Positions 17,457-19,858 of a stretch of DNA of 64,000 bases are shown here, piece by piece. Location of the stretch: positions 1 to 64,000 of the forward strand of contig NZ_CACZDK010000001.1 in assembly GCF_902779965.1 (NCBI RefSeq), given 5' to 3'. The DNA is from Fibrobacter succinogenes. Lineage in GTDB: Bacteria > Fibrobacterota > Fibrobacteria > Fibrobacterales > Fibrobacteraceae. Under the pieces are notes generated by a model. The model was given only the letters and a program-made list of their open reading frames with translations. It made no database searches and was not told the DNA's origin. Position 1 is the stretch's first letter, and every line of letters begins with the position of its first letter. The translations under genes and the position numbers were made by a program.

Positions 17457-19106
<1,650 letters not shown>

Positions 19107-19117
19107 TTAAAATTTTT

Positions 19118-19233
19118 GATTTAGTTAGAAGTTGGAAGTAGGAAGTTAGAAGTGAATTTTTCGCGGCTTCGCCGCCCGTTTTAGATGTGCCTACGGCACC
19201 ATTTTTTATCCTGTCTACTGCCTACTGTCTACT
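19118..19233. repeat. GTAGGAAGT-type mosaic between groS and groL
   Basis: TTAGTTAGAAGTTGGAAGTA at the groL side and CTGTCTACTGCCTACTGTCT near the groS stop, with a GC-rich CGGCTTCGCCGCC hairpin between. The words match those at 26705, 38796 and 56606. Confidence 0.6.
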
Positions 19234-19513
19234 ACAAAGTAGCGATAACGTCGGATTCCTTGACGATGAGGTAGTTTTCGCCATCGACGGTAACTTCGGT
19301 ACCACTGTACTTGCCGTAAAGCACCACGTCGCCAACCTTGACTTCCATAGCGACGAGTTCACCCTTGTCGTTCTTGCGACCCGGACCTACGGCCACGACC
19401 TTACCTTGCATCGGCTTTTCCTTTGCATTATCCGGAATGAAGAGACCGGAAGAGGTCTTCTGTTCGGCTTCTGCCGGCTTGACAACGATTCGATCTGCTA
19501 AAGGCTTGATCAT
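19232..19513 (-). CDS. groS: Co-chaperonin GroES
   Basis: A 93-residue protein with the family layout: [20 protein letters not shown], the mobile-loop region [14 protein letters not shown], then [27 protein letters not shown] and a C-terminal ESDVIATL. It caps GroEL. An AGAGGA site precedes the ATG. It is the first gene of the groESL unit. No CIRCE inverted repeat (TTAGCACTC-N9-GAGTGCTAA) occurs upstream, so HrcA control is not indicated. Confidence 0.97.
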
Positions 19514-19614
19514 TATTTTTATCCTCTTTTGGGCTTTGCCCTTTGTTAAATTGCTTGGTCCTATTGAATTTGGTTATGTTCCAATTTGGACCGTTTTTGT
19601 TTTCGACCCTTTTA

Positions 19615-19632
19615 GAGCAATTTCCGTGCCAA
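19615..19632 (-). promoter_or_regulatory. Sigma-54 (-24/-12) promoter of groESL
   Basis: The minus strand reads TTGGCACGGAAATTGCTC, an exact match to the sigma-54 consensus YTGGCACGnnnnTTGCW. The GG (19630-19629) and GC (19618-19617) dinucleotides are separated by exactly 10 nt. It predicts a start near 19605 and a leader of about 90 nt before groS. Sigma-54 promoters need an AAA+ activator; none is encoded nearby. Confidence 0.75.
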
Positions 19633-19858
19633 AGTTCCAATTCTATAGAATATGTGTGAAGAATGGTGCGCGACAATTAAAAACGTTTTGTTTTGAAACT
19701 GGAACATGCGACACTTTTTTTTGATGTGTTTAAAAATGAAACTTTATCATTTTCCCCGTGAGGGAAAAAATTGAGGTGTAAGGGGCCTAATTGGAGTTGT
19801 TTTCTGATTTCAAATGATTATAAATGTGTTTTTTTGTGTATGATTTTTTTATCTTTCA

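Follow-up and report, generated by a model that had tools for sequence, protein, structure and literature searches.

Core heat-shock genes of bacteria are usually under the control of sigma-32 or of HrcA/CIRCE-type repressors, and sigma-54 is usually associated with nitrogen, motility and the cell exterior. The groESL operon of Fibrobacter succinogenes raises the question of whether the main chaperonin genes can be driven by sigma-54 and, if so, what activates them. It was approached through the whole 64,000-nt stretch of DNA that carries the operon (the window), the rest of the same genome (the study genome) and relatives from the whole phylum. The organism groups with Fibrobacter, since for one of its proteins the closest relatives that carry a name come from Fibrobacter MAGs.

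The promoter before groES

Paired TGG and GC elements at −24/−12 with fixed spacing are the criterion for a sigma-54 promoter, and it is met at groESL. Only one match to TTGGCACGGAAATTGCTC with three or fewer mismatches exists in the window (0.06 expected); it lies at 19632–19615 on the minus strand, and is exact, as a preliminary description had held. The features of the locus are:

19615–19632, minus strand: sigma-54 −24/−12 promoter of groESL, TTGGCACGGAAATTGCTC, with TGG at 19631 and GC at 19618–19617; rests on the exact match and on conservation in the family
19603–19607, minus strand: predicted groESL transcription start, inferred from spacing (about 12 nt downstream of the −12 GC) and unmapped
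19578–19592, minus strand: leader palindrome, GGTCCAAATTGGAAC, conserved in the genus
19232–19513, minus strand: groES (93 aa), ATG at 19513
17457–19091, minus strand: groEL (544 aa)

The groES ATG is 118 nt downstream of the beginning of the TGG, and from a start near 19605 the leader would be about 92 nt long, in agreement with the distance of some 90 nt given earlier. This groESL is the single copy found in the study genome.

A consensus match of this kind can arise by chance, groESL then being under some unrecognised promoter. The pattern TGGCAC-N5-TTGC occurs 24 times in the study genome and the reversed control pattern 6 times (genome-wide counts that rest on pattern searches only), so one match alone is no proof; conservation is. 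The groES upstream DNA was therefore compared across the phylum, in which Fibrobacteraceae is family f1, with genera g1 to g11. Of 93 Fibrobacteraceae genomes, 91 have a strict TGGCAY-N5-TTGC match in the 200 nt upstream of groES, at a distance of 54–123 nt from the start codon, and the remaining two have the one-mismatch versions GGGCACGCATTTTGC and TGGCACGGTTTTAGC. In Markov-shuffled copies the pattern turns up at a rate of 0.0003 per sequence. With this, and with the recurrence of the site before other chaperone genes, chance is effectively refuted, and the retention in other Fibrobacter genomes that had been put forward as a check extends to the family. The region upstream of the site is weakly conserved (mean column identity 0.40). 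The TGGCA and TTGC columns of the site alignment were not used as evidence, since they are invariant by construction, only strict sites having been taken into it. Judged from these features, a putative sigma-54 promoter for groESL is strongly supported.

Between 19500 and 19910 the groES strand has no sigma-70-type site, and a sigma-70 promoter was rejected as the alternative; the one sigma-70-like match near groES lies on the other strand and is no better than expected by chance. The leader has a palindrome of its own. GGTCCA or AGTCCA-N3-TGGACT, about 39 nt after the TGG, recurs in 34 of 69 dereplicated groES leaders, in g1 genomes, and the copy at 19578–19592 could be a third, weaker activator site, an operator or an mRNA hairpin.

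Other chaperone genes with sigma-54 sites

Beyond what had been described before, reading of the neighbouring genes places strict sites of the study genome not only before groES, but also before grpE, dnaK, clpB, htpG and secA. Strict sites are also found before a PII gene, a gltB-like gene and the lptC-lptA pair upstream of rpoN, targets which are expected for sigma-54. The dnaK site is strict in 13 of 18 Fibrobacteraceae genomes, and in the other five dnaK directly follows the apparent end of grpE. For clpB it is strict in 12 of the 17 genomes that could be read, the rest having near matches (mostly TGGCAA); sigma-54-like sites before clpB are also present in genomes of families f4 and f7.

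Three of these loci deserve mention in their own right. The site before lptC-lptA (L056, G000:C22:7680) makes autoregulation of rpoN possible. Another strict site is directly before the gene for a 270-aa sigma-70-family factor (L060, G000:C26:79325), hinting at a sigma cascade. The secA gene (L054, G000:C19:18111) has both a sigma-54 site and the palindrome considered below, as chaperone genes do, linking protein export to chaperone control.

Absence of HrcA, CIRCE and an RpoH above cut-off

The preliminary description had noted the lack of a CIRCE element, and none is present with three or fewer mismatches anywhere in the window. HrcA was not found in the study genome, nor in any of 111 Fibrobacteraceae genomes or the two of family f2, many of them 99–100% complete; in the sister families f3 to f5, 12 of 13 genomes have it. 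With neither CIRCE nor an hrcA gene, HrcA/CIRCE control of groESL was rejected. Direct reading of groES upstreams in f3 and f4, other families of the class, reveals CIRCE-like repeats behind sigma-70-like hexamers, so that the sigma-54 sites of Fibrobacteraceae stand where sister families use HrcA/CIRCE, a point also absent from the earlier account. RpoH was likewise rejected (best score 150 bits, the curated cut-off being 323): the study genome has three sigma-70-family factors, none with RpoH status. A genome without rpoN was to have refuted the preliminary reading; since rpoN is present, that refutation does not apply.

It is nevertheless conceivable that the sigma-54 promoters serve ordinary or nutrient-linked expression, with heat induction provided by a sigma-70-family factor or post-transcriptionally through a structured leader. 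One of the three sigma-70-family factors is itself behind a strict sigma-54 site, and the groES leader does have its conserved palindrome. Yet the sigma-54 sites are common to a functionally coherent set of folding genes, the groES strand lacks a sigma-70-like site and the sites occupy the HrcA/CIRCE place of sister families, all of which makes this explanation quite improbable.

An enhancer-like palindrome

A palindrome, GTTTCA-N3-TGAAAC, common to groES upstreams was first noticed by eye. Because cherry-picking was to be avoided, all palindromic dyads with 5-mer halves and spacers of 0–12 were ranked against shuffles in 69 dereplicated regions upstream of −24. The top dyad, GTTTC-N5-GAAAC, is present in 64 of the 69 groES promoters where 0.9 would be expected, and those ranked next are mostly shifted versions of it. 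The window has two copies:

19685–19699, minus strand: enhancer-like palindrome, proximal copy, GTTTCAAAACAAAAC, matching at 10 of 12 positions
19728–19742, minus strand: enhancer-like palindrome, distal copy, GTTTCATTTTTAAAC, matching at 11 of 12 positions, 43 nt from the proximal copy

Such pairs occur in 49 of 91 groES promoters, and in the dereplicated set their spacing clusters near multiples of 10.5 nt, the helical repeat (R 0.52, Rayleigh p ~3e-5). At dnaK the palindrome starts 64–67 nt upstream of the TGG in 8 genomes from 5 genera (g5, g6, g7, g9, g11), and in most g1 genomes there are palindromes about 36 and 85 nt upstream of it. The study genome has only ten places that match with at most one mismatch, and five of them lie no more than 150 nt from strict sigma-54 sites, those of groES, grpE, dnaK, htpG and secA (binomial P ~4e-12). 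There are irregularities: at htpG the palindrome follows the promoter instead of preceding it, and only a half-site is present at clpB of the study genome. The upstream activator sites that had been suggested as something to look for thus have a candidate. The criterion of an upstream enhancer for a sigma-54 promoter is met as far as position and recurrence go, and function as an enhancer remains putative, without experimental data.

Outside Fibrobacteraceae the picture is mixed. In f4 genomes, groES promoters that have CIRCE but no recognisable sigma-54 site have the palindrome upstream of them, so its original role may have been a different one. The groES upstreams of f14 showed no palindrome, though there the activator gene discussed below sits in the chaperone cluster. 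In f7, a family of another class, HrcA was not found in genome G025, where groES and dnaK each have a strict site preceded by a palindrome. Sigma-54-like groES promoters are also seen at f7 loci L137, L142 and L133, that is, in another class of the phylum; some f7 genomes with such promoters have two groES genes and have kept HrcA.

The candidate activator

Alongside rpoN, the study genome encodes eight clear enhancer-binding activators (EBPs), so that the need of sigma-54 for an activator can be met. When they were compared with those of eleven other genomes, group A was the only orthologous group present in all nine Fibrobacteraceae genomes compared, the study genome included. Its gene there (EBP A) is at contig C4:24014-25567 (= L269:8015-9568). 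A full-length EBP A is encoded by 105 of 111 Fibrobacteraceae genomes, the six exceptions being MAGs of 74–88% completeness, and the group is also present in f3 and f4. In at least 11 genomes where both genes could be read, from f3, f4, f13, f14, g8 and g3, it comes after dnaJ:

Families outside Fibrobacteraceae: f3 (L276); f4 (six: L272, L275, L297–L300); f13 (L295); f14 (L294)
Genus g8 of Fibrobacteraceae: L296, in the order groES-groEL-grpE-dnaK-dnaJ-EBP, with no hrcA
Genus g3 of Fibrobacteraceae: L267, with one short ORF between dnaJ and EBP A

The search of the genome for a sigma-54 activator that had been advised before has in this way yielded a candidate with a chaperone neighbourhood. 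In g1, g5, g6, g10 and g11 the gene is instead preceded by a large histidine-kinase-like ORF and a receiver, and in the study genome by a histidine kinase and a stand-alone receiver; with such a partnership, the signal could be something other than misfolded protein.

The protein meets the criterion for its class, having a sigma-54 interaction AAA+ domain, a GAFTGA-type loop and a Fis-type HTH. In the study-genome protein the loop is a variant, GSYTGS; several orthologues have GAFTGA or GSFTGA. All ten aligned EBP A proteins share the recognition helix LGISRxTLWRK, which varies only at x. Nine of the ten have another residue in place of the receiver aspartate. In the study-genome protein this residue is glutamate, and without a phosphorylatable aspartate the protein does not qualify as an NtrC-family response regulator proper. 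This mostly degenerate receiver, together with the dnaJ neighbourhood, suggests, without proving, that EBP A is gated by protein contact, in the form of titration by chaperones, and not by phosphorylation only. Such titration is known for HrcA with GroEL and for sigma-32 with DnaK.

That EBP A is the activator of the chaperone promoters is likely but inferred, and its presumed binding to the palindrome is deduced from co-occurrence and neighbourhood only. Signs of autoregulation were sought, and no palindrome or strict sigma-54 site was found before the EBP genes of the study genome, EBP A included. Outside Fibrobacterota, no EBP A-like gene beside chaperones was found among the named matches listed, neighbours having been recognised by short sequence signatures.

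Sigma-54 might, however, drive the chaperones through a different activator, either the PspF-like group B, which has no sensor domain (contig C5), or an EBP with a GAF or receiver domain, with nitrogen, energy or envelope stress as the possible signal. Group B is present in 8 of the 9 Fibrobacteraceae genomes compared, and in one genus its gene is convergent with groEL and adjoins it (L203, G043:C1); the same sigma-54 also serves the PII gene and gltB in the study genome. Against this, group B was not found in G055 despite the promoter and two good palindromes there, groups C and D are absent from more genomes than group B, and among the matches listed none of the other EBPs is in a dnaJ operon. 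A different activator is accordingly considered unlikely, though not to be dismissed. Group C (L005), group D (L002, with a GAF domain and next to a protein-kinase-like ORF), the NifA-like EBPs (L004, L006, L008) and an RtcR-like one (L009) were each rejected as the activator, every one of them not being found in at least one Fibrobacteraceae genome with palindrome and sigma-54 site. In one of the NifA-like proteins (L008, G000:C3:179644) GALVGV stands in place of GAFTGA, and sigma-54 activation may have been lost.

A model for chaperone control

The preferred reading, which is probably though not securely correct, is that in Fibrobacteraceae the core chaperones and secA are under sigma-54 with a palindrome-binding EBP A, HrcA/CIRCE having been replaced. 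Sigma-54 promoters would drive groESL and most core chaperones (grpE, dnaK, clpB, htpG), and also secA. A dedicated NtrC-family activator, EBP A, would bind the GTTTCA-N3-TGAAAC palindromes, often paired, and remodel the closed complex of sigma-54 whenever folding capacity runs low. Elsewhere in the phylum, other families have EBP A as the last gene of a groESL-hrcA-grpE-dnaK-dnaJ cluster, beside HrcA; in sister families the two coexist in one cluster, with CIRCE at groES and clpB apparently sigma-54-dependent. Loss of HrcA and CIRCE in the ancestor of Fibrobacteraceae would have left activation by EBP A as the main control. What the model takes directly from the DNA is the predicted promoter and its conservation, the pattern shared by chaperone genes, the palindrome, the absence of HrcA and the synteny. 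Binding of EBP A to the palindrome, joint induction of the genes and protein-folding stress as the signal are inferences, there being no transcription data. The initial proposal that groESL is under sigma-54 has gained from the presence of rpoN, the lack of HrcA and of an RpoH over its cut-off, the conserved site, the palindrome and the candidate activator, in the absence of data on the start site or on rpoN dependence.

A bolder possibility, offered tentatively and as one that may well not hold, is that the complete cytosolic heat-shock response is on sigma-54, with a pseudo-receiver activator that senses folding capacity directly, activates all core chaperones and has replaced HrcA repression family-wide. 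The activator might, for example, be held inactive by DnaK/DnaJ or GroEL, and would anciently have been the last gene of an hrcA-grpE-dnaK-dnaJ operon.

For the preferred reading, the significance is that a family to which rumen Fibrobacter belongs has apparently shifted its main chaperones to sigma-54 with loss of HrcA, an example of a stress regulon rewired from repression to enhancer-dependent activation. It also provides a candidate role for an otherwise unnamed activator family of Fibrobacterota.

Comparison with known systems

HrcA/CIRCE acts on the same operons (groESL and hrcA-grpE-dnaK-dnaJ) in sister families, where the EBP A gene is in the same cluster, but it exerts negative control on sigma-70-type promoters, and both HrcA and CIRCE are absent from the Fibrobacteraceae study genome. 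The sigma-32 (RpoH) regulon of Proteobacteria is similar in that all core chaperones are under a single, positively acting transcription system; it differs in that the study genome has no RpoH over the cut-off and that sigma-54 depends on an enhancer-binding activator driven by ATP.

There are already precedents for sigma-54 acting on individual chaperone or protease genes. The groESL3 operon of Bradyrhizobium japonicum is under NifA/sigma-54. Its co-regulation with nitrogen-fixation genes is cited in PMC6604987; it is one of several groESL copies and tied to nitrogen fixation, whereas in the study genome a single groESL was found and other chaperones share its control. Chlamydia has a sigma-54 promoter before the hrcA-grpE operon, though there HrcA/CIRCE and a housekeeping promoter are still in charge and rpoN is down-regulated by heat (PMC8762339). 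No paper linking Fibrobacter succinogenes with the term sigma-54 was found in a literature search. The HsfBA-lonD system of Myxococcus xanthus is not known to have a dnaJ linkage. In that system an NtrC-like activator, HsfA, works with a histidine kinase on a heat-shock gene (cited in PMC9109919); it acts on one protease gene, and the Fibrobacter case concerns the core chaperone set. The nearest precedent is a 2025 in-silico survey with position matrices (PLoS One, PMC12316311), which predicted groEL, groES, grpE, dnaK and dnaJ to be under sigma-54 in Bacteroidota and Planctomycetota; Fibrobacter is absent from its main text, and its accessible passages give the chaperones neither an activator nor an operator or a substitute for HrcA. 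Given these precedents and predictions, what would be new in Fibrobacteraceae is not sigma-54 control of chaperones itself, but a dedicated, dnaJ-linked activator in the place of HrcA.
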